Positions 1-28,559 of a DNA stretch of 64,000 bases are shown piece by piece. Below the pieces are notes generated by a model. That model worked only from the letters and a program-made list of their open reading frames with translations, was not told the DNA's origin and did not search any database. Numbering within the stretch: the stretch's first letter is position 1; every line of letters begins with the position of its first letter. The stretch comes from Aquisphaera giovannonii (GTDB lineage Bacteria; Planctomycetota; Planctomycetia; Isosphaerales; Isosphaeraceae). The position numbers and the translations under genes are program-made. Location of the stretch: assembly GCF_008087625.1 (NCBI RefSeq), contig NZ_CP042997.1, positions 5,394,001-5,458,000 on the forward strand, in the 5' to 3' direction.

Positions 1-1892
1 GACGGGTCGGCCATCGGCTCCTCCAGGAATGTCGCGAGCGCGTAGAGGGACTGCCCCGTCGCGTAGGCGTCGCTCCCGAGCGTCGGCAACTGGGCCCAGC
101 CGCCGTCGTCCCGCTGCTCATGCCGGAGCGTCCCGATCAGGCGGGCCATCGTCTCCGAGGGCTCGCCCGCCCAGCGCAGGCCGAGCATCTGGAAGCAGGC
201 CTCCTCGGTCCCCTGCGGCCGGGCCGCCCGGAGCCAACGCCGCGCCCGCCCGATGCCGGCCGCGAACTCCTCTTCGGAGCCTCGCCAGCCGTAAGCCTTC
301 AGCCCGCGGATCGCCAGCGCCGTGGCCGTGATGTCGCTCGACTCGAGCGGCGGGCGCGGGATGCCGGTGATCCAGCGGCCGTCCTCCGCCTGGATCGCGA
401 GGAGATGATGGACGACGGCGTCGGTCATGACGCCCGGCGCGACCTTCCCCGCGGCCAGGCCGAACAGCTCGTAGCCGAAGCCGTGGGAAGCGTCCGGATG
501 GTAGACGGCCTGGGCGACCCACTCGCGGTACTCGGGCCGGCTCTTGTTCGCGACGACCGCGTGGATCAGCTCCCCGGCGGCCACCCGGTCGAAGCGGATG
601 GACCGGCCCCGGGCGTGGCCCGCGGCGGCCATCGGCAGGTACTGCTGGTGGCACGAGATGCAGTCCTGCCTGCTGACGTGCGAGAGGAACGACGCACGCG
701 AGGCGGACGCGGTCGCCTGCAACGCCGCCAGGGCCTTCTCGGCGGCGGCGATCACCGTCTCATCGTCGGGCCTCTCCGGGACCGGGCGATGCGGGGTGGC
801 GAGCGGCTCGGGCCTCGGCGGCTCCTCGGCACCGGCGGCCGCGAGAGTCTCGACGATCGCCGTACGGCCGCGCCTCTCGGCGATCATCCGGGCCGTCTGC
901 GGCACCATGGCGAACGACTCCACCGGCCCGCCCCCCGCGGCGTTCGGGTCGGCGCCGCTCGCCAGGAGCAGCCTGGCCAGGTCGGGGCGGAGCGACTCGC
1001 TCCCCGCCGCCCAGTGCAGCGGGGTGAAGTCCGCGAAGGGGTCCCGGGCATTGACCCTCGCGCCTCGGCCGATCAGGATGCGGGCCGCCTCGACGCCGTC
1101 GCTCCAGCACGCCTGCGACAGCGGGCTGCCGTAGTCCGTCGACCGATTCGGGTCCGCCCCGCGGTCCAGGAGGAGGCGGACCATCGGCGCATCGTTGTTG
1201 AACGCGGCCCACATCAGCGGCGTCCGGTAGCCCGCCGCGCGGGTCGCGGCCCTGGACGTGGCCGATTCCGGGAAGTCGCCGGCCTCCGCGCCGGCGTCCA
1301 GCAGCAGCCGCACCGTCTCCAGGTCGCCGCTCGCCGCGCCCGCCATGATGGGGCTGATCCCGGCCTCGTTGCGCCCCGGGGGGTCGGCCCCGCGCCCGAG
1401 CAGCAAGCGGACCGTCCGCGAGTTTCCGGCGCGGCGGGCGGCCAGGATCAGCGGCGTGTTGCCGAGGTCGGCCGTCCGCACCCCGGCCTTCGCGCCGGCG
1501 GCGATGAGCAGCCGGGCCTTCTCGCAGTCCGTCGCGGCCCGGATCAGCGCCGTGACGCCGGCCCGGTTCGCCGCGTTCGGGTCGGCCCCCTTCTCGAGCA
1601 GGAGCTCGACGCACCGCGGGCCCGCGTAGAACGCGGCGAGGATCAGCGGCGTGTTCCCCTCCTCGTCCCGGGCGTTCACGCCCGCGCCGGCCTCGATCAG
1701 CCGGCCGACGGCCGACGCGTCGGCGTCCCGGATCGCCGCGGCCAGCGCGGGCGACATCGGTGCATCCCGGCGCCCCTCGCCGGCGCGGGCCGCCCGGGGC
1801 GAAACCGGTTGGAGCTGGGCGAGGCCCGCGAGCACGAGGGACGCGAGGCCGAGGTTCGAGAGGTGTCTTCCGCGGCGTCCGCGACCAGACAT
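1..1892 (-). CDS. ankyrin-repeat / CxxCH / alpha-toroid protein (C-terminus outside window)
   Basis: The minus-strand frame starts at ATG 1892 behind AAGGAG and is still open at base 1, so about 630 codons are visible. A basic N-terminus and a short hydrophobic stretch (residues about 12-30) suggest export. Ankyrin repeats fill residues about 55-300, with motifs such as NTPLILAA and LLLDRGADPN. A single CISCHQ motif lies near residue 410, a c-type heme-like CxxCH. The rest (about 420-630) contains GGWAQLP and other features of prenyltransferase/squalene-oxidase-type alpha-toroids. Ankyrin repeats usually bind proteins; toroids include cyclases but also many non-catalytic scaffolds. The combination suggests a secreted protein with one heme. 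Substrate and partners are unknown. Confidence 0.8.
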   Translation of the reverse strand, partial: MSGRGRRGRHLSNLGLASLVLAGLAQLQPVSPRAARAGEGRRDAPMSPALAAAIRDADASAVGRLIEAGAGVNARDEEGNTPLILAAFYAGPRCVELLLEKGADPNAANRAGVTALIRAATDCEKARLLIAAGAKAGVRTADLGNTPLILAARRAGNSRTVRLLLGRGADPPGRNEAGISPIMAGAASGDLETVRLLLDAGAEAGDFPESATSRAATRAAGYRTPLMWAAFNNDAPMVRLLLDRGADPNRSTDYGSPLSQACWSDGVEAARILIGRGARVNARDPFADFTPLHWAAGSESLRPDLARLLLASGADPNAAGGGPVESFAMVPQTARMIAERRGRTAIVETLAAAGAEEPPRPEPLATPHRPVPERPDDETVIAAAEKALAALQATASASRASFLSHVSRQDCISCHQQYLPMAAAGHARGRSIRFDRVAAGELIHAVVANKSRPEYREWVAQAVYHPDASHGFGYELFGLAAGKVAPGVMTDAVVHHLLAIQAEDGRWITGIPRPPLESSDITATALAIRGLKAYGWRGSEEEFAAGIGRARRWLRAARPQGTEEACFQMLGLRWAGEPSETMARLIGTLRHEQRDDGGWAQLPTLGSDAYATGQSLYALATFLEEPMADP

Positions 1893-2090
1893 GCGTTCAC
1901 TCCTTCTTGTGATGAGGGTTCCAAGTTGCTGGGGCAGCCGCCGGGCTCCGGCGGCCCGGTCGCGAGCCTCCGCCCGCCCCTCGATCGCGATGCACCCCCT
2001 CAAGGCCACGCGCCTCGCCCCGGGGCGCGGACGGCGATCGCCCCGCCGCGCGGCGGGTCCGGCTCATTCCGCTCCCGGCGGGACGCGGCC

Positions 2091-3128
2091 TCAGGCCGAT
2101 CGGACCGGGCCCGGGAGGAGCCGGCCGCGGTACTTGCTGGGCGCGACCCGGAGGACGCGCAGGAACGACCGCCGCATCGAGTCGGGGCCGCCGAACCCGC
2201 ACTCGCGGGCGACGCGGTCCAGCCCGGCCGCCGACTCCTCCAGGAGCCGGCGGGCCGCCTCGACCCGCACCCGCTCGACGAACCGCGCCGGGGTCTGGCC
2301 CACCTCGTCGCGGAAGACCCGCGCGAAGTTCCTCGGGCTCATGTGGACCCGCGCCGCGAGGGCCCCGACCGAGAGGTCGCCGGAGGGGTGCCCCGCGATC
2401 CACGCCTGCAACTCGCGGATCGGCCGGCGTTCGGCCGCCTGCAGGTCCAGGGCCGCGCTGAACTGCGGCTGCCCCCCCGGGCGGCGCACGAACATGACGA
2501 GGTGGCGGGCGATCCGCATGGCGGCGTCGTGGCCGTGGTCCTCCTCCACCATGGCCAGTGCCAGGTCCATGCCGGCCGTGACGCCGGCCGACGTGTAGAC
2601 GTTCCCGTCGCGGACGAAGATCGGCTCCTCCTCGACGGCCACGGCCGGGTGGTCGCGGGCCAGGCGCGGGCACAATTCCCAGTGCGTGGTCGCCCTCCGG
2701 CCGTCCAGCAGCCCGGCCGCCGCCAGCACGAACGCGCCGGTGCAGACCGACCCGATCCTCCGGACGCGGGGCGCCATGCGGCGCAGCCAGCGCAGCAGCG
2801 GCTCATCCCGGGCCGCCCGCCAGGCGCCCTCGCCGCCCGCGACGAGGAGCGTGTCCACCGTCCCCCGGATCGATCGATAGTCGCGCCCGGCGACCAGCGC
2901 GACCCGGCACGACGTCTCCACGCGCGTGCCCCCGCCGGCCGAGACGACTTCGAGGCGATACCCGGGCGCGGTGCCCTCCCTCGCCCCGTCCGGTGCGTGC
3001 CCGAACGCGTCGAAGACGGCGCACGGGCCGGCCACGTCGAGCAGGTCGGCGCCGGGGTAGGCCAGCAGGACGACCCGCCGGCCGCCCCGGCCTCTCGCTC
3101 CGGCTCGTCGTTCGCTCGCCACGCCCAC
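2091..3128 (-). CDS. GlxA-family transcriptional regulator (DJ-1/PfpI + AraC HTH)
   Basis: This 345-residue protein joins an N-terminal DJ-1/PfpI-like amidotransferase-fold domain (about 18-190; VVLLAYPGADLLDVAGP near the start, CTGAFVLAAAGLLDG at the nucleophile-elbow position) to a C-terminal AraC helix-turn-helix pair (about 225-325; MSPRNFARVFRDEVGQTPA, then ECGFGGPDSMRRSF). The cysteine of SVCTGAF occupies the family nucleophile site, although GlxA-type regulators are normally thought not to be catalytic. The start is GTG behind GGGGGT. No obvious target operon is adjacent: the ankyrin gene lies downstream on the same strand after a 198-bp gap. Members often regulate amine, choline or amino-acid metabolism; the ligand here is unknown. 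Confidence 0.9.
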   Translation of the reverse strand: MGVASERRAGARGRGGRRVVLLAYPGADLLDVAGPCAVFDAFGHAPDGAREGTAPGYRLEVVSAGGGTRVETSCRVALVAGRDYRSIRGTVDTLLVAGGEGAWRAARDEPLLRWLRRMAPRVRRIGSVCTGAFVLAAAGLLDGRRATTHWELCPRLARDHPAVAVEEEPIFVRDGNVYTSAGVTAGMDLALAMVEEDHGHDAAMRIARHLVMFVRRPGGQPQFSAALDLQAAERRPIRELQAWIAGHPSGDLSVGALAARVHMSPRNFARVFRDEVGQTPARFVERVRVEAARRLLEESAAGLDRVARECGFGGPDSMRRSFLRVLRVAPSKYRGRLLPGPVRSA

Positions 3129-3299
3129 GAGGCACCCCCATTCCGATCGACGGGCCCTACCCGAGCGGCCGCCCCCGGCCGCGGGACCGTGGCGAGGCCT
3201 CGGTCTCGGCCCGCATGATCATCCTATCCGCCCGGGCCTCGGATCAAAGGACGAGGATCCGACAAATCCTGCCAAGTCGCTTCGGCCGCGGCGTCGGCC

Positions 3300-6002
3300 T
3301 CAGGGCGCGCCCAGGAGGCCCTCCAGGCGGGGCCCGGCCAGCCAGCACTCCGGGGGCTTCCAGCCGCCGGCCTTCGCCCGGCGGAAGAGGTCCCTGGCCT
3401 GGTCGATGCGGCCGGCCTCGGCCTCGACGCGGCCCCGCCAGGCGAGGCACTCCGGAGAGCCCGGGGCCGCGGCCTCCCACCGATCGAGGATGCCCGGCAG
3501 CTCGGCCGGGGCGTGCGCCCCGGCCAGGCCCGCCCGCCAGGCGAAGAATGGCCCGAGGAGGTCGGCGGCCTTCCTGCGGGCCAGGGCCGCGGCCATCGCC
3601 TCCGCCAACTCGTCCCCCTCCCGGCTCCGGCCGAGCTCGTGGGCCAGCGCCGCGTGCTGCTGCACCAGCTCGACGAGCATGGCGAGCTGGCGGCCCGAGA
3701 TCCCCTCCGCGGCGATCAGGTCGCGGACCGTCGGGGTGGCCTCCGACCAGGCACCGGCCGCCGGCTCGGCCCGGCCCAGGAGGAGTTGCTCATGGGCCAG
3801 CCCGAGCGCGGCGTAGGCGTGCTCCAGCCGGGCCTGCACGTCGCCCGGGTCGCCCCGCGAGAAGGCGGCGAGGTGCGTGCGCGCCGCCTCGAACTGCGAC
3901 GCGGACTCGGCGTGCTTCGCCCGCTGGGAGAGCAGGGTCGCGAGGTTGAAGTGCGCCTGGCCGAGCGATCGCCGCCAGCCGAGCACCCGGGGGTTCTCGT
4001 CGACGACGCGGCCGAGCGCCTCGATCGCGCCGGCGTACGCCTCCTCCGCCTCCGGCAGCCGCCCGCCCCACTTGTAGAGGACGCCGAGGTTGGACTCGGC
4101 CTCTGCCAGGCCGGTGCGGTTGTTGAGCCAGCCGGGGTCCGCGGCGACCAGCTCCTCCCACAGGGAGCGGGCCCGCTCGAGCGTCGAGATGTCCTCCGCC
4201 GCCATCCGGTTGCTGGCCAGGGAATGGAGCGTGCTCGCCAGCTCGGCCTTCACGTCGACGGCGTCGGGGTCCTCGGCGAGGATCTCCTCGAGGACCTGGG
4301 CGGCCTCCCGGAACCCGCCGATCGCCGTGCCCGGGTGCAGGAACATCCCCGCACGGGCGGCCCCGGCGAGCGCGGAGGCTTGCGGCAGCCGGTATCCCCG
4401 GCCGAGCCGGCCGAATAGCCCGGCGGCCGCCAGGGCCTCCGCCTCGGCCGCCTCGTACTCGCGGCGGTGCCGGAGGCACTCGCCGAGCACGACGCGATCG
4501 CCCGCGACGGCCGCGATCCGCGACGGGTCGGCCGGCGACTCCTCGAGCAGCCGCCCGTGGAGGGCCAGGGCCTCGCGGACCGTCGCGGCGGCCTCCGCGG
4601 GCTCGCCGAGCTGCACCTGGAGGCGGGCCAGCCGGGCGAGGGCGTCGGCGACGGCGGCCCGGGCGGACGCGTCGCCCCGCCGCGCGGCGACGAAGCCGCG
4701 GTAATGGGCCACGGCGTCGCCCAGCAACTTCTTCCGCAATGGCTGGAGCCCCGGCTGCCTCAGGAGCTGCTCCTCGGACGCCCGCGTGCAGAAGCGGTCC
4801 ACCACGTCGAGCGCGGCCTTCAGGTGCGCCTCGGCCTCCCGCTCCCGGTCGCGGGCGACGACGGCCTGGCCCTCGGCCCTCCTCCAGAGCACGAACGAGG
4901 CGGCCGAGCCCGCGGCGAGCGCGACGGCCAGCGTCGCGCCCAGGCCCGCGAGCGTCCGATTGCGCCGGACCCACTTCGCCGCCGCGCCCAGCCGGCCGCA
5001 GGGCCTCGCCTCGATCGGGCGCCCCGCCAGGAAGCGGGCCAGGTCGTCGCGGAGGGCCGCGGCGGACGCGTAGCGGCGGGCCGGGTCCTTCTCCAGGCAC
5101 TTCAGGGCGATCGTCTCCAGGTCGCGGGGCACGTCGCGGTTCAGCTTCCGGGGCGGGACCGGATCGTTCTCGGCGATCATCCGGAGCACGTCCAGCGTGC
5201 CGCCGCGGAACGGGGGCACCCCGGCGAGGCACTCGTAGAGCGTCGCCCCCAGGGCGTAGACGTCCATCCGCGGGTCGGCCGCATCCGGCGTGCGGACCTG
5301 CTCCGGGCTGAGGTAGCAGGGCGTCCCGGCGATCGTCCCGGCCGAGGTGATCCCCTCGTGCCCCCGCGGGCGGGCGAGCCCGAAGTCGGCGAGCTTCGCG
5401 GCGCCGTCGGCGTCGTCGACGATGACGTTGGCCGGCTTCACGTCGCGGTGGACCGTGCCGGCCGCGTGGGCCGCGGCCAGGCCGTCGGCGACCTGCCGGG
5501 CCAGCTCGGCGGCCTCCCTCGGGTCGAGGACCCGGCGCCCGGCGATCCGCTCCGCCAGGGTGGGGCCCTCGACGAGCGGCATCACCAGGTACGGCGGGCC
5601 GGCGTCCGGGGCCTCGGCGGCGAAGACCGGCACGAGGTGCGGGTGCCGCAGCCCCGCCGCCGCGCGGGCCTCGCGGCGGAACCGCTCGCGGGCCTTCGCG
5701 TCCGCGAAGGCGCCCGCCGCCAGGACCTTCACCGCGACCCGGCGGCCCAGCCCCTCGTCGACCGCCTCGTAGACGACCCCCATGCCGCCGCGGCCCCGCT
5801 CCGCGACGATCCGGTAGGGGCCGACCCGCTCCGGGACGCCGTCGGCCCGCCCCGGGGCGTCGTCGTCGCCGCGGCCGCCGGGCCCCCCTCCCGGGCCGTA
5901 GAGCCTCGCCGCCAGGTGCCCGGGCAGGGTCATGCAGGCCGGCGAGGCGGCGACGAGGTCCCTGAGCCGCGCCAATTCCCGCTCGTCCGGGGGGCCGTCC
6001 AT
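3300..6002 (-). CDS. membrane Ser/Thr protein kinase with TPR-like C-terminus
   Basis: A PknB-type kinase of 900 residues. The kinase domain spans about 62-325: Gly loop GRGGMGVVY, VAVK lysine 92, HRDVKPANV with catalytic Asp187, DFG at 206-208 and CYLSPEQ in place of the APE region. One membrane helix lies near 351-373, followed by a long extracytoplasmic helical region (about 380-900) with TPR-like repeats. The start ATG 6002 is two bases after the stop of the ECF sigma factor gene, so the two are almost certainly co-transcribed and translationally coupled. Such sigma/kinase pairs are frequent in planctomycetes; the kinase may control the sigma factor or sense envelope signals, but its substrate is not shown. 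Confidence 0.92.
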   Translation of the reverse strand: MDGPPDERELARLRDLVAASPACMTLPGHLAARLYGPGGGPGGRGDDDAPGRADGVPERVGPYRIVAERGRGGMGVVYEAVDEGLGRRVAVKVLAAGAFADAKARERFRREARAAAGLRHPHLVPVFAAEAPDAGPPYLVMPLVEGPTLAERIAGRRVLDPREAAELARQVADGLAAAHAAGTVHRDVKPANVIVDDADGAAKLADFGLARPRGHEGITSAGTIAGTPCYLSPEQVRTPDAADPRMDVYALGATLYECLAGVPPFRGGTLDVLRMIAENDPVPPRKLNRDVPRDLETIALKCLEKDPARRYASAAALRDDLARFLAGRPIEARPCGRLGAAAKWVRRNRTLAGLGATLAVALAAGSAASFVLWRRAEGQAVVARDREREAEAHLKAALDVVDRFCTRASEEQLLRQPGLQPLRKKLLGDAVAHYRGFVAARRGDASARAAVADALARLARLQVQLGEPAEAAATVREALALHGRLLEESPADPSRIAAVAGDRVVLGECLRHRREYEAAEAEALAAAGLFGRLGRGYRLPQASALAGAARAGMFLHPGTAIGGFREAAQVLEEILAEDPDAVDVKAELASTLHSLASNRMAAEDISTLERARSLWEELVAADPGWLNNRTGLAEAESNLGVLYKWGGRLPEAEEAYAGAIEALGRVVDENPRVLGWRRSLGQAHFNLATLLSQRAKHAESASQFEAARTHLAAFSRGDPGDVQARLEHAYAALGLAHEQLLLGRAEPAAGAWSEATPTVRDLIAAEGISGRQLAMLVELVQQHAALAHELGRSREGDELAEAMAAALARRKAADLLGPFFAWRAGLAGAHAPAELPGILDRWEAAAPGSPECLAWRGRVEAEAGRIDQARDLFRRAKAGGWKPPECWLAGPRLEGLLGAP

Positions 6003-6004
6003 GA

Positions 6005-6610
6005 TCACCGTCCATCCGAGAACGAGGGCAGGTCCTTGGACAGCTCCCGGATCGTGCCGGCCAGCGCGCCGAGGACCCGCGACTTCGCGACGTAGACCGA
6101 ATCCACGGAGACGCCCAACTCCGCCGCCACCTCGGCGGGCGGCCGGCCGGCGACCCAGACCTGCTCGAAGGCCGCCCAGGTCCTCGGCTCGAAACGCGCC
6201 CGGCAGCGCCCCATCGCGACCTGGTAGAGGTGCGACTGGAAGGCGTCCGCCCACTCCGGGTCCTGGCCGGCGTCGGCCAGGGCGTCGAGCTCCTCCGGCG
6301 GCATCGTGGACGCCCGGTCCCGCCCCCTGGCCCGATACTCGCGGAGGACCTCCCGGTACACGATCGTCCCCAGCCAGTCCCGGAACCGCCCGCGCCGGGG
6401 GGCATATTCGAAGGTCCGCAGGCCGCGGAAGACGCGGGCGAAGACCCGCTGCGTGACGTCCTCCGCGTCGGCGTGCCCGAACCCGCGCCGGCGGACCGTC
6501 GCGAGGACCAAGGGCCCGTATACGTCCACGAACTCCACCCAGGCGGCCCGATCTGCCGGGTCGGCCAGCCTCAGGAGCAGGCTCTCGCGGGTTGCAGGAG
6601 GCGGCGGCAA
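6005..6610 (-). CDS. ECF-type RNA polymerase sigma factor
   Basis: A sigma-70 family protein of 201 residues. Region 2 is at about 20-100 (DAEDVTQRVFARVFRGL, then FRDWLGTIVYREVLREY) and region 4 at about 130-190 (FEQVWVAGRPPAEVAAELG, SVDSVYVAKSRVLGAL). This gives the length and layout of planctomycete ECF sigma factors. It heads a two-gene unit with the downstream Ser/Thr kinase and carries no anti-sigma factor in cis, so the kinase may replace one in control. Target promoters are unknown. Confidence 0.92.
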   Translation of the reverse strand: MPPPPATRESLLLRLADPADRAAWVEFVDVYGPLVLATVRRRGFGHADAEDVTQRVFARVFRGLRTFEYAPRRGRFRDWLGTIVYREVLREYRARGRDRASTMPPEELDALADAGQDPEWADAFQSHLYQVAMGRCRARFEPRTWAAFEQVWVAGRPPAEVAAELGVSVDSVYVAKSRVLGALAGTIRELSKDLPSFSDGR

Positions 6611-8003: not shown

Positions 8004-8501
8004 ATGGGCCATGATGTCCGGATCGAGCACCGCCCGCGTCGAGAGCTCGCCGTGGTGCGGCGGCGAGCGGCCCCCCCCGAATTGAGCCGGGTCATCCCGG
8101 AGGCCTGCGGCCTCGTCTGGGGCGTCATCCGCTCGCAGAACGTGGCGGGTGCCGGCAGGCACGTCGCGGTCTACCTCGACGGCGAGGGGGACGTGGAAGT
8201 CGGCGTCGAGCTCGAATCGCCCTTCGCCGGCCACGGCGAGGTGGTCGGGTCCTCCACGCCGGCCGGCCTGGTCGCGACGACCACCCACCTCGGCCCGTAT
8301 GGCCGGCTCCACGAGGCGCACGCCGCCATCCGGGAATGGTGCCGGGACGGCGGCCATACGCCGGCCGGGCTGGCCTGGGAGGTCTACGACCACTGGCGGG
8401 ACGAATGGAACGCGGACCCGTCCGCGATCCGCACCGACGTCTTCTACCTGCTCGATCCGGGCTCGAAGCCCGAGGCCGAGTCCCCCGCCCGCCCGGAATA
8501 G
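8004..8501 (+). CDS. GyrI-like / AraC effector-binding domain protein
   Basis: A stand-alone small-molecule-binding domain of 165 residues resembling GyrI/SbmC and the effector half of AraC/MerR regulators. The beta-alpha-beta-beta duplication is visible as GVELESPFAGHGEVV, then TTHLGPYGRLHEAHAAI and the late WEVYDHW. The family acidic residue is present in WEVYD. The ATG follows GGGAG at seven bases. It has no DNA-binding domain and would act as a ligand binder or scavenger in the cytoplasm. No partner gene is obvious; it lies between the PEP-CTERM gene and repeat-rich DNA. Confidence 0.82.
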   Translation: MGHDVRIEHRPRRELAVVRRRAAPPELSRVIPEACGLVWGVIRSQNVAGAGRHVAVYLDGEGDVEVGVELESPFAGHGEVVGSSTPAGLVATTTHLGPYGRLHEAHAAIREWCRDGGHTPAGLAWEVYDHWRDEWNADPSAIRTDVFYLLDPGSKPEAESPARPE

Positions 8502-8576
8502 GAGGGCCCGGCGAGCCAACGTCAGGCATTCGCCGGCGGTCCGATTCGGACACGAACCCCGCGTGCGCGCGTCCAC

Positions 8577-8692
8577 GGGCCGAGTGTGGCTGCCGCCCAT
8601 CCGCAGCCGGCGGCGGCGTCATGGCCCCGATCCGCCGCGCGAGGCCAGGGACAACCTCGAAACTCGCGTCGGTGCGGCGGACCGAAGCACGC
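8577..8692. repeat. dispersed intergenic repeat A, copy 1
   Basis: This 116-bp block matches 28444-28559 base for base in register at roughly four of five positions. The best-conserved part is the end (acctcgaa, ctcgcgtcgg, gcggcggaccgaagca). No coding frame is common to both copies. The surrounding stretch 8502-8939 holds no gene that I can support. Confidence 0.7.
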
Positions 8693-8939: not shown

Positions 8940-9357
8940 GACCCAGCGAAGGGACGCCGAAGTCCGCGGCCGTTCGTCTCATCGTCGCGGCCGTGACGCT
9001 CCTGGCCGTCACCGGGCGAGCGCCGTCTCAGGAAACGCCCGAGCGACGGGGTCGCCCGCGGCGATGCCGGTGACGACCAACGCCGCCCCGCCACTGCCCG
9101 ATCCCGGCGTGCCCGCCGCGTCGGCCGACCCGGAGGATCCGACTCTCACGTACGGGCTCGTCACCCGACCGACGATCCCCTCTCCCGCGGTGGCTCAGGA
9201 CGGAACAATGTACACGCCCGGTGAGGGCGTGACGATTTCTCTCCTCAATAACACGTCGCGGCTCTGGCTCTCCGCCAGCCTTTCGGCGCTGATGCTATTC
9301 AACTCTCAGCGTCCCTTCACCTCAGGCGCCCCGTTCTTTTTGCTACCTGCTTCGTAA
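8940..9357 (+). pseudogene. porin-like outer-membrane protein, 5' fragment
   Basis: A hydrophobic leader (VRLIVAAVTLLAVTG, about 8970-9020) is in a different frame from the following segment, which reads from about 9064 as TYGLVTRPTIPSPAVAQDG, MYTPGEGVTISLLNN, LWLSASLSALMLF and FTSGAPFFLLPAS. This is the amino-terminal part of the planctomycete porin-like family whose carboxy-terminal part is found 4.85 kb downstream (14205-15067). The TAA that ends the fragment lies within the GTAAGCG at the start of the inserted DNA. No good start codon is visible and one frameshift separates leader and body. The link between the two pieces rests on family recognition and on their order and orientation. Confidence 0.7.
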
Positions 9358-9360
9358 GCG
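9354..9360. repeat. putative IS66 terminal repeat end (GTAAGCG)
   Basis: GTAAGCG begins exactly where the porin reading frame stops matching its family. IS66 elements typically start with GTAA(G/C)CG. No inverse copy was seen near 14200, so the pair is incomplete. Confidence 0.5.
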
Positions 9361-9558
9361 TAATACGGAGTACGCCCCTCCAACCGCAGCGACCCTCCGG
9401 TCAGTGCCTTGGCCTCTTCCTGGTCGATCGCCCGTGTCCGGTGTATCGACGGGTCCCGATCGGAGAGAATGACTGGTAAGGCCCGGTGGCTCGGGGCCGC
9501 CGGCTCGGGCGTAACACATCGGGGAACCCCCTCGATCTCCCGAACAGGGCGGACGGCG

Positions 9559-10014
9559 ATGGCGAAGCGCAAGGACGAAGGCGTTGGCGATACCCGGCTG
9601 GTTTTCTCCGCGCACAACACGCACCACGAGCGCTGTGGTGCCCCGCCTCGCCTGCGCAACACCGACAACCCCGGGCTCTACCACGGCTACTTCGAGAACC
9701 GCTACGGCGAGCAATTCGTCTTCACGTTCGACAGGGCGGCGGGGACCGGAACCGTCTCGGGCGGCGACCTCGGCTGGGCCGAGCCCAGGACGTTCACCCG
9801 CGGCCTGCTCGACGAGGCCCTGCGCAGCACCCGGGACCTCGCCGCGCAGGTCCAGGGGGACGACGCGAGGTCACAGCTGCCGGCGATTGACCACGCCCTG
9901 GCGCTGGGACGACTCACCGGCCTGACCGGCAAGGACGAGATCGTCTGGCTGCGGGCGTGCCTGGAGGCCTGTGCCGGCCTCGCGGAACCGTCCGGGGACC
10001 GTCACCCGGCCTGA
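9559..10014 (+). CDS. conserved hypothetical protein, possible IS passenger
   Basis: A soluble protein of 151 residues with no signal peptide or membrane helix. The start ATG 9559 gives MAKRKDEGVGDTRLVFSA; 50 further in-frame residues upstream look non-coding. The core (HNTHHERCGAPP, LYHGYFENRYGEQFVFTFD, GTVSGGDLGW) is compact, and a helical end follows (KDEIVWLRACLEACAGL). I recall similar small proteins in planctomycete genomes but know no function for them. It runs head-on into the 412-residue gene, with stop codons seven bases apart. Confidence 0.6.
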   Translation: MAKRKDEGVGDTRLVFSAHNTHHERCGAPPRLRNTDNPGLYHGYFENRYGEQFVFTFDRAAGTGTVSGGDLGWAEPRTFTRGLLDEALRSTRDLAAQVQGDDARSQLPAIDHALALGRLTGLTGKDEIVWLRACLEACAGLAEPSGDRHPA

Positions 10015-10021
10015 TCACCGT

Positions 10022-11260
10022 TCACAACGTGGTCACGGCGAACCCCAGATCCTGGCACCGCCGCACGAAGTTGTCGGGGCGGGAGTGGCTCTTGATCAGC
10101 AGGTAGCCGGGCGGGGCGCCCGGTTCGAGGTAGCCCTTGAGCTGCGGGTGCTCGCGGATAGCGGCCAGGACCTCGGCGCTCTCGGGCTTGACCAGCGCAC
10201 TGCACCGGCGGATGCCCACCGTGCCGCCTACCTTCGACTTTGTGCCCAGCAGGTCCGCGACGGGCGAGGGGAGCGGCTCCAGGTCGCGCAGCGCCTCACG
10301 CAACTCTTCACCCGGGGCGCTGCCCGCGGGCGACGCGGCCAGTCGCTTGCGGTCGAGCCGGAACTCGTAGACTTGATCGACCCGCCGGATGATGGCGTGG
10401 CGGAACAGGGGCACCAGTGTCTCCCAGTTCAGCCCCGCTCCCGCAAATACCGAGAGATCCGGCTGTGCCTTCATCACCGTCGCCAGCTCCGGCGCGGGGA
10501 GTGGTGGTCCGAGACCGAGCATCGACAGACCGGTCGGGCTGGGGAACCACCAGCCGGTCTTTTCTTGCTCGGCGTAATAGGCCCACTCGGCGGTATAGAG
10601 GGCGGAGACCAGCGCATTGCGGCCCCGGGCATCGAGCTTCTTCTGCCATCCCGCGACATCGACGCTGTCCACTCTCAGCCTGAGCCCGTGGGCCGCTTGC
10701 ACCAGGTCGTCCTGGGGGAGTCGTATGAAGTCGTGAAGCACCCGACCCACCTCGGACTCGACCAGGGCCAGTCCACGGAAGCACGAGAAGAAGAGCGACA
10801 GCAGCTCGGTCAGGCCCCAGTCCTCCGGGGCCCTGGCGTAGTCAAACGGGTGTCCGGTCTGGGACCCGACGAGCCGCCTGACGGCCCGGCGCGCGATCGC
10901 CGGCAGCTTCGCGTCGTCGTGAGCCCAGAACGTTGCGAGGTTCGGCCCCGCCCCGTAGCGATTCTGCAGGTCGAACCGGAGCACGTCCGCCGCGACGAGG
11001 AACGTCCCGACCCGCTCGGTGAGGTACTGGTTGAAGTTCGCCTCCTTGCCGATGCGGTTCACGTCGGTCATGTTCGGCGTGCCGTCGTGTTTGGCCTGGA
11101 CACGCCCGGACAGGAGGATGCAGGCCACGGCGCGGTACCAGTAACCGCCGTACGGCGAGCGATGTTCCTTCGGCTCGCCTTTCCGGATGTCGGCGACCGT
11201 TCTGGTCGTCTGGCCCTCGACGAACCGCCGGAGGGATTTGGGGAGGCGCGGCTGGCCCAT
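10022..11260 (-). CDS. hypothetical protein with helicase-associated (XPB_N / Helicase_C_3-like) architecture
   Basis: A protein of 412 residues without signal peptide. The C-terminal half (about 225-412) reads like the non-ATPase domain found beside bacterial XPB-type helicases: QPDLSVF, RRVDQVYEFRLDRKRLA, EALRDLEPLPSPVADLL, then an alternating-strand end (SALVKPESAEVLAAI, GYLLIKS, RRCQDLGFAVTTL). No Walker A, Walker B or helicase motif is present. The N-terminal half has GYWYRAVACILLSG and a Trp/Tyr-rich helical segment. It lies 68 bp downstream of the 227-residue gene on the same strand, so the two probably form an operon. A role in DNA handling is possible but only an inference. Confidence 0.6.
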   Translation of the reverse strand: MGQPRLPKSLRRFVEGQTTRTVADIRKGEPKEHRSPYGGYWYRAVACILLSGRVQAKHDGTPNMTDVNRIGKEANFNQYLTERVGTFLVAADVLRFDLQNRYGAGPNLATFWAHDDAKLPAIARRAVRRLVGSQTGHPFDYARAPEDWGLTELLSLFFSCFRGLALVESEVGRVLHDFIRLPQDDLVQAAHGLRLRVDSVDVAGWQKKLDARGRNALVSALYTAEWAYYAEQEKTGWWFPSPTGLSMLGLGPPLPAPELATVMKAQPDLSVFAGAGLNWETLVPLFRHAIIRRVDQVYEFRLDRKRLAASPAGSAPGEELREALRDLEPLPSPVADLLGTKSKVGGTVGIRRCSALVKPESAEVLAAIREHPQLKGYLEPGAPPGYLLIKSHSRPDNFVRRCQDLGFAVTTL

Positions 11261-11328
11261 CGGCGGGGCTCCGACTCACATGAGCAATGGAACAAGTTCG
11301 GGACCGACACCGGCACGAATGCGGGCCG

Positions 11329-12012
11329 TCACGGCGAGACGTTCCAGACCTCGACCAGCCGCCAGCCCGCGCGGGTGCGGGCGACCACGCCGCCGATGTC
11401 CCAGCCGGCCTTGCAGGCACGGGCGATCGCCGCGGGGACGGGGATCGGGCCGATCTCCGAATCACCGCCGAGCAGCGATTCCAGCCAGATCTGCTTCGGC
11501 TCGACCCGCTGGATGACGAAATGCCCCTCGATCTCCTTGCCGGATCGGGCCGGTCCCGTCGCCTCGATCCAGTCGTCGATCGTGTCCAGCAGCTTCTGGC
11601 TGGCCGGCAGGTCGCGGGCAGCCTCACGGACGCGCCCCCGGGCCGCCTCCTCGACCTCGGTGTAGCCCCGCGCGACCAGCCACCGGGTTAGCTTGTTGAC
11701 GACCGTCCCGGCGGCCTTCATCGTCTCGTTGCCGGCGATCACCTTGTGGGGCATGAAGTAGCCGAGGAACTCCGAGAACCCGGAGGCGATGTCGGCGGCG
11801 CCGTACGTGCCGCAGTAGGTCCCCCCGGCCCGGGTGACCGCGTCGTAGTCCTCGCGGGAGTGGTCGGGCCAGTAGCGCTCGAGGTATCCCCGGTAAAGGT
11901 CGATGATCCCCTCGTACCTGGCGTACGTCTTCGGGCCGAGCTGGGCCTCCTGGGCGGCGAGGAACTCCGCGAAGATGTCGTCGATGGTCTTGTCCGGCCT
12001 GGGGGGGCTCAT
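11329..12012 (-). CDS. hypothetical protein with integrase-core-binding-like N-terminus
   Basis: A protein of 227 residues. The start (TIDDIFAEFLAAQEAQLG, KTYARYEGIIDLYRGYLE) resembles the SAM-like core-binding domain of tyrosine recombinases, but no catalytic R..HxxR..Y domain follows. The middle (GFSEFLGYFMPHKVI, AAGTVVNKLTRWLVARGY) continues as helices. The end (AGWDIGGVVARTRAGWRLVEVWNVSP) is beta-rich. The start lies 41 bp beyond the tnpC stop and in the same direction, so transcription from the IS could reach it. Function unknown; DNA binding is plausible. Confidence 0.62.
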   Translation of the reverse strand: MSPPRPDKTIDDIFAEFLAAQEAQLGPKTYARYEGIIDLYRGYLERYWPDHSREDYDAVTRAGGTYCGTYGAADIASGFSEFLGYFMPHKVIAGNETMKAAGTVVNKLTRWLVARGYTEVEEAARGRVREAARDLPASQKLLDTIDDWIEATGPARSGKEIEGHFVIQRVEPKQIWLESLLGGDSEIGPIPVPAAIARACKAGWDIGGVVARTRAGWRLVEVWNVSP

Positions 12013-12053
12013 CGGGTCGTCGGCTCCCGGGGTCGTGTGCGGCTACGCACATT

Positions 12054-13681
12054 CTATCCGGGCCGACGGCGCAGGCCACGCCCCCCTCGGGGCGGTGAAC
12101 CGACCGATACGCAGGCGACACCCTCAGCTCGGCTCGCCGGCTTCATGCGGCCGCCTTCCGGCGCCGCCGGGTGAGACGCGAAACAGACGTCGGGCAGGAG
12201 GCCCTCGAGCTGATCCGCCGGCAGCGACGGCAGGCGACGCAGCACGTCCTGAAGATAAGCGAAGGGGTCGATGTCGTGGTGCCGACAGGTGCCGGTCAGG
12301 GAGTACAGCACGGCCGCCGTGCGGCCGCCCCGGTCGCTGCCCAGGAACGTCCAGTTGCGCCGCCCGATCGCCTGGGCGCGGAGCATCCGCTCGGCGAGGT
12401 TGTTGTCGATGCTCAGTCCCCCGTGCCCGGGGTGGCGACACGGCGCCGCCCAGTTCGACTGCGTGTAGGCGATCGCCTGGCCGATCGGGCTCTTGGGCAG
12501 CGCGTGCCGCTCCTGCTCGGTCAACCACTCCCCGAACGCCGTCAGCCGAGGAACGGACTCCCGCTGCCGCAGGGCCTGACGGTCCTCGGCGGAGAGCGTC
12601 GCGCCGGCGGTCTCGATGGCGTAGAGCCGCCGGATGCGGGCCAGCGCCGCGTGCGCCGGCAGCGGCGCGGACGTCCGCGCCTCGTAGAACTTCCGCCGCG
12701 CGTGTGCCCAGCACGCGACCTCGATCACGTCCGACCCGGCGTACAGCCTGTGGTAGCCGGAGTACGCGTCGGCCTGGAGGTAACCGCGGTACCCGTCAGG
12801 AACCGCGCCGGACCGTCACGGGTGTGGCGCGGCGTGTAGTCACAGACGACGTAGGGATGGCGGGCGTCGCCGATGTAGACCCGGAACCGGCCCTTGCGGG
12901 TCCTGGTCAGACTCCGGTCCAGCACCGGAACCGGGGTGTCGTCGGTGTGGATGATGTCCGGGAGGAGTACTCGCCTGACCATCAGGTCATGGAGCGGCGT
13001 GAGCAGCTTGACGCAGGAGGCCATCCATCCGCAGAGCGTGGCCCGAGACAGCGACACGCCGTGGCGGGAGAAGATGTCCTCGAGCCGGTACAGCGGGAGG
13101 TGGTCGGAGAACTTGCTGGTGATCGTCTGGGCCAGCAGGCCCGGGCCGGGCAGCCCCCGCTCGATCGGCCGCGGCGGCTTCTCCGCCAGCACGACGTGCT
13201 CCTGGCAGGCCCGGCAGGCGTACCGAAACAGCGCGTGCACGACGACGAAAAGCGAGGAGGGCACGTACTCCAGTTGCTCGCTCGTCTCCTCGCCGATCCT
13301 GGTGCGTGGGCAGCCGCAATCCGGACAGGGCAACTCGGGGTCGGACAGCGGGTACTCCACTCGCTTGCGGGGCAGGCCCTCGGGGAGCCGCTGTCGTCCC
13401 TTGCGCCGCCAGTGCCTCTTCGGCTTTGCCACCTCCGGCCCGGGCGCTTCCTCCGGCGTGGCCTCGGCGACGTCCGCCGCCGCGTCCTCGGTGAACAGCC
13501 GGAGTTGGTCCGGATCGACGCGCTCCCGCCGCGGGCTGAACTGGCGGCGGAGCACCAGCCCGAGCTGGTGCTCCAGCTGCTCGATCCGCCGTTGCGCCGC
13601 CCGGATCGTCTCCGCCTGCTGGCGGATGATCTCGTGGCACAGTTCAAGGTCGGTGGGCGGGGGCGTCGCGTGCTCACACAT
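12054..13681 (-). pseudogene. tnpC: IS66 transposase TnpC, single frameshift
   Basis: Two overlapping frames together give a full IS66 transposase. Frame 1 (13681 to about 12793) has the coiled N-terminus, the zinc-finger-like CPDCGCPRTR and CRACQEH motifs, and HTDDTPVPVLD with the first DDE aspartate. Frame 2 (about 12790 to 12054) has QADAYSGYHRLYAG, CWAHARRKFYEAR and NNLAERMLRAQAIGRRNW with the catalytic Glu. Moving from FLTG to YRGYLQ needs one extra base at 12790-12794, so one base appears to have been lost, unless this is a sequencing error. The C-terminal tail after VCFASHP is longer and unlike other IS66 ends, suggesting a lost stop. Confidence 0.9.
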
Positions 13682-13720
13682 GCCAGGATTGTAGCGGCGC
13701 GAACGCGTTCGAAGAGGCCG

Positions 13721-14095
13721 TCAGCGCGGATTCTCGACGGGCTCTCGGGAGTACCGCCGCTGTCGCCGGACGCTGCCCAGGTCGACGCCGTCGAGGATCA
13801 TCATCAGGTCGGCCGCCTTGACCTCCACGCCCTTGGGCCCTCCCCCCGTCGCCGTGGCCGGGAAGCGGAACGTGCCCTTCTCAAGCCTCTTGTACCACAG
13901 GGCGTAGCCGTCCTTGTCCCAGTAGAGGACCTTCACCCTGTCGCCGCGCCGGCTCCGGAACACGAACAGGCGGCCCGAGAGCGGGTCGAGGGTCAGGGAC
14001 GACTGGACCAGGGAGGCGAGCGAGTCGAACCCCTTGCGCATGTCGGTCGCATCGGCGGCGAGGAAGACGCGTACGGTCGGGGGCCAGCTCAGCAC
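13721..14095 (-). CDS. tnpB: IS66 family accessory protein TnpB (Orf2)
   Basis: A protein of 124 residues with the family signature ADATDMRKGFDSLASLV, LFVFRSRRGDRVKVLYWD and YALWYKRLEKGTFRFP. The start is GTG 14095, overlapping the tnpA stop (GTGCTGA). It is required together with TnpC for IS66 transposition. The gene is intact even though both neighbours are broken. Confidence 0.93.
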   Translation of the reverse strand: MLSWPPTVRVFLAADATDMRKGFDSLASLVQSSLTLDPLSGRLFVFRSRRGDRVKVLYWDKDGYALWYKRLEKGTFRFPATATGGGPKGVEVKAADLMMILDGVDLGSVRRQRRYSREPVENPR

Positions 14096-14205
14096 GGGCG
14101 GCCCTCCAGCACGGCGAGGACCTCGCCGAGGGTCCGCGGGTCGAATCCGTGGGGCACCCGCACGATCGTGCCGGCTGGTAGCACGATCTCGATGGCAGGG
14201 ACGGG
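14089..14205 (-). pseudogene. tnpA: IS66 tnpA, 3' stump only
   Basis: Only about 38 C-terminal codons remain (PAIEIVLPAGTIVRVPHGF, then LGEVLAVLEGRPC), overlapping the tnpB start as usual. Upstream of about 14205 the strand-opposite porin sequence takes over. The helix-turn-helix part of TnpA is missing, as is the IS end. Confidence 0.75.
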
Positions 14206-15067
14206 CCGGGGCTGTTGGTCTACTTCGCCTACGGGGAGCTCGTCAACGAGGAATAGCGGTTCGTCGGCGGCCTGATGCAGGACATCGATAATCCCCTCAG
14301 CCCCACGGTTCTCACCCTGGCGAAGCTCTACGGCTCGGGCAACACCGGGTCGTATCGTGGCGCCCTCCGTCTGGAGCGCTACTTCGAGATCACCGACGCC
14401 TCGCAGGTGACACTCCAGGCGGGCATCGGCGAGCCGATCGCCACCCTGGTGACGGCCCCGACCGGCCGCATCAACGAGGACAACGGGTGGCCCAATGTCG
14501 AGGGCCGGGCTGCCCTCGGCTTGGGCGAACTGCGGCAGATCGGGGCGGCCAAGGCACGGCCCTTCGAGACGGGGCTCTCCGGTGTGGTCGGACGGATTCG
14601 CACGACCCGCACGCTCTTCGCAACGCCCGACACGAGACCCCTCCGGGCGGTGGACGACGTCTGGGGCCTCGGCGCCGACCTGCGATGGTCGATCACCGAT
14701 CGCCTCGGGCTGGCCGGCGAGTTCGACGTGGGCCGGACCCTCGGCGAGTACAACGGCACTCTGCTCCAGAACAACGACACGAACACCCCGGGCCCGATCC
14801 GGGGCCGGGGCGGCTGGGGAGAGGTCTTCGTCTACCTGACCGAGACGCTGCGCTGGCATGTCGGGTTACGGCATCGACGCCCCGTTCGTTCGCGACCTCG
14901 CCCCGACCCAGATCGCCCGGAACCAGGCGTTCTTCAATACGCTCGTGTGGGATGTGAACCGGAACTTCCAGGTGGGATTCGAGGTCGACTACCGCAAGGC
15001 GAGCTACATCCGCTTCCTCGACAACGAGGGAGTCAATTTCATGACGCAGTTCGTCTGGAAGTTCTGA
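14205..15067 (+). pseudogene. porin-like outer-membrane protein, 3' fragment (stop and frameshift)
   Basis: The frame from about 14206 reads GLLVYFAYGELVNEE, an in-frame TAG at 14254-14256, then RFVGGLMQDIDNPLSPTVL. Beta-strand-rich sequence follows up to ETLRWHVG near 14866. There an extra T (GGGTTACGG) shifts the frame, and the protein continues as YGIDAPFVRDLAPTQIARN and NFQVGFEVDYRKASYI to a terminal aromatic strand, MTQFVWKF. A final Phe on an amphipathic strand is typical of outer-membrane barrels. It ends 11 bp from the stop of the convergent amidohydrolase gene. With the 5' fragment at 8940-9357 it makes one disrupted gene. Confidence 0.8.
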
Positions 15068-28245: not shown

Positions 28246-28329
28246 CGCTTTCCGCTCGCCAGCCTCGGCCCGTAAACAGTGACAACCCGGCCGAGATCCG
28301 CACGGACGCCTGCGACCTGGTCGATCCGG
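28246..28329. repeat. dispersed repeat B2, copy 1
   Basis: Matches 30512-30596, with long identical runs (gccagcctcggcccgt, gatccgca, ggacgcct). It follows B1 and precedes repeat A copy 2, so A and B may be parts of one older element. Confidence 0.65.
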
Positions 28330-28443
28330 GCGCGGGGGATGATGCCGCGCTCCCCGATCGGCCGGCGTGGAGTAGCCGGGCGGGCCCACGGCGGGCGTCC
28401 GCCGTCGAGGCGAACCGGACGCGTATCCATCGTGCGCATCCAA

Positions 28444-28559
28444 GGGCCGAGGGTGGCTGCCGTCCGGGAGCGGCTGGGTGCGGCGGCATGACCAAGCTCA
28501 GCCGCGTGAGGCCGGGGGTAACCTCGAATCTCGCGTCGGCGCGGCGGACCGAAGCAGGC
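28444..28559. repeat. dispersed intergenic repeat A, copy 2
   Basis: A 116-bp block in register with 8577-8692. The copies are about 19.9 kb apart in the same orientation. Confidence 0.7.

Follow-up and report, generated by a model that had tools for sequence, protein, structure and literature searches.

The window analysed here, a stretch of 64,000 nucleotides from the planctomycete Aquisphaera giovannonii, contains three genes that lie behind the transposase gene tnpC of an IS66-family insertion sequence. The locus raises two questions: are these genes residents of the chromosome or cargo carried by the element, and, if they are cargo, what might they do in the host? A first-pass annotation had viewed them as possible passengers with a DNA-related or defensive role. 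IS66 elements with passengers are already known as a general arrangement, the so-called tIS66, exemplified by ISPa75 with fosZ in Pseudomonas (PMC12888890), and the passenger type makes up 7 of the 25 Pseudomonas IS66 in ISfinder (PMC12888890); the new part is the cargo.

A dead IS66 copy between two halves of a porin-like gene

The minus strand carries, in this order, a remnant of tnpA, then tnpB, tnpC and the genes for proteins of 227 and 412 residues, with a gene for a 151-residue protein running in the opposite direction (Table 1). The IS66 gene set is recognizable in its tnpA-tnpB-tnpC order, tnpB and tnpC by Pfam and NCBIfam matches and tnpA as a truncated remnant. Examination of the reading frames bore out the initial description of two co-directional genes behind tnpC at spacings of 41 and 68 bp, of a convergent third gene filling the interval up to 9354, and of an IS end at that position; tnpC is likewise present, but its frame is split by a frameshift into two Pfam-matching ORFs, as against a single frame of 513 residues in the complete element L008 described below.

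The end itself, GTAAGCGTAATACGG, is an IS66 right end and sits exactly at 9354. A motif scan for GTAAGC/GCTTAC within 9300-14300 found a single occurrence, at 9354, and therefore an IS66 end is absent behind tnpC, in agreement with the earlier reading. Across the 10.5-Mb genome GTAAGCGTAWTACGG has one exact match, that at 9354, and one further site at two or fewer mismatches; a second copy of the element was looked for in this genome and none was found. The GTAAGCG-type terminal inverted repeat is thus represented in the window by its right member at 9354, the left end being absent, and the tnpA remnant runs straight into porin sequence. The window copy is dead: it is immobile on its own because the left end and most of tnpA have been deleted and tnpC is frameshifted.

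The porin-like gene, whose intact relative in L099 has 517 codons, is present as two parts outside the interval. Its N-terminal half runs up to the residues FFLLPAS and terminates at 9353 against the IS end, and about 50 residues (~150 bp) are missing between the halves. Since the two halves flank the interval with this gap, we infer that an IS66-family element with passengers inserted into the porin-like gene at 9353/9354 and that a later deletion took ~150 bp of porin sequence together with the left end and the greater part of tnpA. This deletion and the frameshift in tnpC would have deprived the element of autonomous movement, with the passenger module between tnpC and the right end staying intact.

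Table 1. Features of the window locus and of the complete element L008 (window positions refer to the whole stretch, L008 positions to its contig)
Feature	Position	Strand	Remarks
Window: porin-like gene, N-terminal part, cut at IS end	9064..9353	+	aligns weakly with the intact L099 homologue (residues ~149-187)
Window: IRR, IS66 right terminal inverted repeat	9354..9387	+	GTAAGCGTAATACGGAGTACGCCCC..., outer end 9354; aligns with the L008 IRR and known IS66 ends (PMC12888890)
Window: passenger gene 3, 151 aa, convergent	9559..10014	+	no known family; identity to the proteins at the same place is 82% in A. insulae, 76-79% in L008
Window: passenger gene 2, 412 aa, probably TFIIH p52-like	10022..11260	-	predicted winged helices, XPB-NTD/clutch-like domain, alpha/beta C-terminal domain
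Window: clutch/XPB N-terminal-domain-like part, residues 259-343 of the 412-aa protein (predicted)	10232..10486	-	VIA-align against XPB
Window: passenger gene 1, 227 aa	11329..12012	-	predicted recombinase core-binding (SAM-like) fold and OB-like C-terminal fold
Window: tnpC, C-terminal part (frameshifted)	12054..12728	-	PF03050, PF13817
Window: tnpC, N-terminal part	12725..13681	-	PF03050, PF13005, PF13007; frame broken near 12,790
Window: tnpB	13721..14095	-	PF05717, NF033819
Window: tnpA 3' remnant, last ~35 codons	14089 to ~14200	-	translation AIEIVLPAGTIVRVPHGFDPRTLGEVLAVLEGRPC, matching the L008 TnpA C-terminus
Window: porin-like pseudogene, C-terminal part	14200..15067	+	49% identity to the L099 homologue; stop codon 14254, frameshift near 14857
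L008: IRL	element start		GTACGCGTCTTACG
L008: tnpA	81-479		
L008: tnpB	473-847		
L008: tnpC	888-2429		intact, 513 aa
L008: 227-aa gene	2596-3279		
L008: extra 398-aa gene	3314-4510		
L008: 412-aa gene	4527-5765		
L008: ~150-aa gene	6227-5778		convergent
L008: IRR	outer end 6427		GTAAGCGTATTACGG

A complete element and other copies of the trio

A metagenome-assembled Planctomycetaceae contig (JAFANO010000319.1; L008, the same as L011) carries the whole element, 6427 bp at positions 1-6427. Its IRL and IRR are identical at 19 of 30 positions, its DNA is 78-84% similar to that of the window from tnpA up to the IRR, and its left flank is unseen because the contig starts exactly at the element end. 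Aquisphaera insulae (L007) has the trio at 92% DNA identity to the window, but lacks tnpABC. The sequence GTAAGCGCATAGCGAACCACACCCC, located 186 bp ahead of the 151-residue gene in that species, matches the IS66 end at 22 of 34 positions and is the best such match over both strands of the 18-kb contig, which is suggestive of an IS66-type end beside the A. insulae trio. No clean empty site for the A. insulae locus was found in the window genome, because its flanks map to scattered places there. In Singulisphaera GP187 the 412-residue gene is present and the 227-residue gene survives as remnants. Overall, passenger homologues in other genomes show 36-93% identity, which, with dN/dS values of 0.29-0.66, marks the three as genuine genes, and the gene order of the trio is common to three genomes.

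The first-pass annotation had proposed that true passengers should recur in other copies between tnpC and the same terminal repeat. The search for such copies recovered the trio in the same order between the intact tnpC of L008 and a right end of the same type, to which the DNA similarity extends, and, as an end-adjacent trio without tnp genes, about 190 bp from the IS66-like sequence of A. insulae. We also inspected Isosphaeraceae relatives of tnpC downstream of that gene, assigning passenger gene names by reading of the sequences. One relative (L093), an IS66 of 3124 bp bounded by the perfect 8-bp duplication GGTTATTT, has a serine-resolvase-like gene after tnpC; another (L092; 4373 bp) is likewise bounded by a perfect 8-bp duplication, CTTTGCCC, and carries two genes in opposite orientations, one of which has a start of the prepilin type; a third (L088) carries two genes, one ECF-sigma-like and the other large and Ser/Thr-kinase-like, followed by the end GTAAGCGTCTTACGG. 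Perfect target duplications were thus seen in relatives, L092 and L093; in the window copy the left end is deleted, and the L008 contig stops at the element. None of the four copies with a located right end (L008, L088, L092, L093) has that end directly behind tnpC, and the trio did not turn up at a fixed chromosomal site free of IS66, so that neither observation named in the first-pass annotation as refuting was made for the trio; L086, L087, L089, L090, L091 and L094 were left out of this count for want of a confident placement of their right ends.

With ISPa75-type tIS66 the element shares the order tnpA-tnpB-tnpC followed by a passenger before the right end, the GTAAGCG ends and, in relatives of the window element, 8-bp target duplications. 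It differs from them in that the window copy is dead and in its cargo, which is a module of three or four genes (~2.7-4 kb) including the probable p52-like protein discussed below, as opposed to one resistance gene.

We regard it as almost certain that the trio are passengers carried inside an IS66 element. The alternative, an IS66 that landed beside a resident chromosomal trio, could appeal to single-gene relatives present at other sites without IS66. It is nearly refuted by L008, which has the same gene order and end position and a short visible flank that differs, and both porin halves lie outside the whole interval; we consider it scarcely tenable. The 412-residue gene is a captured one and not IS66-specific, because relatives of this gene alone exist without IS66 (L009, L013, L014, L041).

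Predicted likeness of the 412-residue protein to TFIIH p52

The subunit p52 (GTF2H4), or Tfb2, of TFIIH controls XPB, the DNA-opening motor, in human cells. Absence of a p52-type protein from bacteria was once reported, and our literature searches found no report of a bacterial p52. When the AF2 model of the 412-residue protein (7 sequences, pLDDT 84) was compared with the PDB using Foldseek, the top 19 matches were all p52/Tfb2, the best with an E-value of 1.7e-4 and probability 1.00. Model residues 259-343 aligned with residues 72-163 of XPB in 6ro4 (VIA-align; Z 8.9, rmsd 3.3, 84 residues), and the p52 clutch is known to have the same fold as the XPB N-terminal domain (PMC6422496). Residues 14-253 matched the N-terminal half of p52 with Z 5.8 and rmsd 4.7, winged-helix regulators being among the matches too, and the C-terminal domain of the model is beta-alpha-beta. 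The predicted order of putative winged helices, clutch and C-terminal alpha/beta domain resembles that of p52/Tfb2 (architecture in PMC6422496). The whole-chain TM-score against p52 is low (0.24) because the domain orientations differ; therefore the match holds domain by domain.

Unlike p52/Tfb2, the protein is bacterial, shorter and without a TFIIH, and its likeness is a predicted one without a significant sequence match. Searches of the PDB sequences with profiles of the 412- and 227-residue proteins gave no match of weight, p52 included, searches with Pfam, NCBIfam and PADLOC found nothing above cut-off in the three passengers, and no p8 gene lies within the element. A verrucomicrobial homologue (P0006) matches Helicase_C_3 with an E-value of 1.6e-4, which is under the cut-off of that family. 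From the modelled domains we conclude that the 412-residue protein is probably p52-like, and the helicase-associated architecture recognized in it at first reading finds its counterpart in this predicted XPB/p52-type domain.

The 227-, 151- and 398-residue proteins

The AF2 model of the 227-residue protein (8 sequences, pLDDT 84) likewise agrees with the recombinase-core-binding-like start that had been ascribed to it. Its residues 5-133 match a phage integrase core-binding domain (3nrw) with Z 11.6, and the predicted fold of the N-terminal ~130 residues resembles the core-binding domains of tyrosine recombinases (3nrw, 3lys). Residues 157-227 match cold-shock/OB folds with Z ~6, which is in the range of common arrangements. 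Pfam gave no match to a tyrosine recombinase catalytic domain (R-H-R-Y), the C-terminal part being OB-like, of the beta-barrel type; in contrast to those enzymes, the protein has an OB-like domain in place of the catalytic domain. Matches of the model to MRG domains (Z up to 12.8) were taken as a common helical fold and not as kinship. Relatives of this protein occur singly in other planctomycetes, and distant relatives of residues ~12-84 of the 151-residue protein are likewise found there; we know of no partner of either protein. No family assignment was found for the 151- and 398-residue proteins, the latter showing a weak HEAT hint (E-value 0.013) and its gene being found in L008 only.

Linkage of the p52-like family to XPB in planctomycetes

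A profile of the 412-residue family recovered planctomycete proteins of 684-693 residues over its columns 225-413 (E-value 2e-10) and reached an E-value of 1e-12 against a wider set. In seven of the nine genomes with hits, counted apart from the window genome, the match lies 1.5-4 kb from a gene for XPB (PF16203); six of these matches are distant long relatives, and the seventh, in G391, is related to the 412-residue protein over its full length. Four Isosphaeraceae, including the window genome, have a chromosomal cluster of XPB, a 74-residue gene and a Helicase_C_3-type gene of ~770 residues (771 in the host, whose XPB gene is at genome position C1:7618226), and in this family of bacteria the 412-residue family does not adjoin XPB. 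The long XPB-adjacent proteins (610-771 residues, Helicase_C_3) resemble the passenger in their clutch-like and C-terminal parts, as indicated by the above profile match (2e-10), but they are chromosomal and have a longer N-terminal part, whereas the passenger is mobile and short.

Profiles from the XPB-locus proteins retrieved the clutch of human p52 from the PDB with an E-value of 0.86, and that of the 74-residue gene retrieved yeast Tfb5/p8 with 1.2, neither being significant alone; at the sequence level the p52 clutch and Tfb5/p8, reached at E-values of ~1, are the expected partners. The 74-residue protein gave no profile match to the C-terminus of the 412-residue protein. As a speculation, for which we claim rather less than an even chance, planctomycetes might have a bacterial counterpart of the XPB-p52-p8 part of TFIIH, encoded by the neighbouring XPB, 74- and 771-residue genes, and IS66 elements might have picked up a compact p52-like cargo able to re-wire the XPB of each new host.

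Possible functions of the cargo

We propose that the 412-residue protein, as a compact counterpart of p52, would bind the N-terminal domain of the host XPB via its clutch-like domain, and that this binding would shift the ATPase activity or the targeting of XPB. The 227-residue protein, with its predicted core-binding and OB-like folds, may bring the complex to DNA. XPB modulation and recruitment to DNA together would let the cargo tune a host pathway of DNA repair or remodelling. Modulation of the host XPB by the cargo is a tentative proposal, and one that may well be wrong; as an overall explanation of the locus, a decayed passenger-bearing IS66 whose cargo tunes the host XPB is the one that we, by a modest preference, consider best.

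Several other fates or functions of the trio were weighed against this one. The trio could be captured hitchhiking DNA, with an ancestral host function or none, in a module on its way to loss: its presence is patchy (the 227-residue gene in 10 of 397 genomes, the 151-residue gene in 15 of 297 and the 412-residue gene in 4 of 59), the extra 398-residue gene is confined to L008, the window copy is immobile, and Singulisphaera retains the 412-residue gene next to mere remnants of the 227-residue one. Yet the passenger frames are open, whereas those of tnpC, tnpA and the porin have been disrupted, the gene order has been kept in three genomes, and dN/dS of the 412-residue gene is 0.29-0.48 across four genomes (the values for the 227- and 151-residue genes being 0.37-0.66 and 0.49-0.63), and we hold such a fate to be unlikely. 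If the passengers served the element instead, the core-binding/OB-like protein would act on its ends or on DNA and the p52-like protein would recruit host XPB for transposition or donor-site repair, as their predicted DNA-binding-type folds and the co-directional placement of two genes after tnpC in both IS66 copies might suggest. However, relatives of both genes are found away from IS66, and the trio proteins are not needed for the element because related IS66 show target duplications with quite different passengers; this makes a helper role quite improbable. An anti-phage defence or toxin-antitoxin unit would be in keeping with mobile, patchy cargo and with the AbiEi-type antitoxin-like and ribbon-helix-helix-like genes, assigned by reading, near the A. 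insulae trio. Against it, none of the three passengers has a PADLOC match (E-value <= 1), phage-family matches are without weight, and no nuclease, NTPase or toxin domains were recognized in them; scans of viral contigs, a plasmid search, PHROGs and a viral fold search returned no relatives of the passengers, and a phage origin is therefore without support. The defensive role suggested in the first-pass annotation thus gains no support, and we deem it highly improbable.

The survey suggests that transport of regulators and other genes, beyond resistance genes, is a regular feature of the IS66 elements of Isosphaeraceae. The probable p52-like family, found at bacterial XPB genes and in a short form on an IS66, would provide a direct handle on the role of XPB in bacteria and on the origin of the eukaryotic XPB module.

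IS66 elements and their passenger genes

In three other IS66 copies recovered in the Isosphaeraceae through their tnpC genes (L088, L092 and L093), the genes carried behind the transposase differ from those in the element of the window (Table), and one of the two opposed passengers at L092 encodes a prepilin-type N-terminus. In the Aquisphaera insulae contig that carries the trio of passenger genes (L007), the stretch between the adjoining IS66-like end and the genes is only ~60% alike, as against 92% identity for the trio genes themselves; elements may have swapped right ends here.

Within the genome of the window, a 41-bp piece of the 151-aa gene (window 9805-9844) recurs with an 88% match at C1:5893641-5893681 on the same chromosome (L002), which may be a remnant of a second copy. 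Additionally, window positions 8416-8692 and 28285-28559 share ~278 bp that are 75% alike.

Relatives of the 412-aa gene and the XPB gene clusters

The setting of the 412-aa gene relative in one Gemmataceae genome (L013) is possibly another mobile one. The gene grouping centered on the XPB helicase of the host (L115) is also seen at L116, L117 and L118, the corresponding loci of three further Isosphaeraceae. As sequence profiles weakly indicate p8 (Tfb5) and p52 at these four loci, this suggests a bacterial XPB-p8-p52-like cluster.

Table. Coordinates of IS66 elements and gene clusters
Locus	Genome	Features
L088:1799-5901	Isosphaeraceae	IS66 relative (coordinates with tnpC set to +); behind tnpC, ECF-sigma-like and 1060-aa Ser/Thr-kinase-like genes, up to IS66 end
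L093:3657-6780	Isosphaeraceae	Complete IS66, 3124 bp (coordinates with tnpC set to +); serine-resolvase-like passenger; perfect 8-bp duplication
L092:3017-7389	Isosphaeraceae	Complete IS66, 4373 bp (coordinates with tnpC set to +); two opposed passenger genes; perfect 8-bp duplication
L007:1764-1976	A. insulae	IS66-like end adjoining trio
L013:6556-11215	Gemmataceae	412-aa gene relative, preceded by recombinase-like ORFs and two genes of unknown function
L115:5048-9500 (C1:7617047-7621499)	Host	XPB helicase, 74-aa and ~770-aa Helicase_C_3 genes, grouped
L041:7474-14329	Distant planctomycete	One cluster: XPB, 610-aa Helicase_C_3 protein, pRiA4b ORF-3-like protein, full-length relative of 412-aa protein
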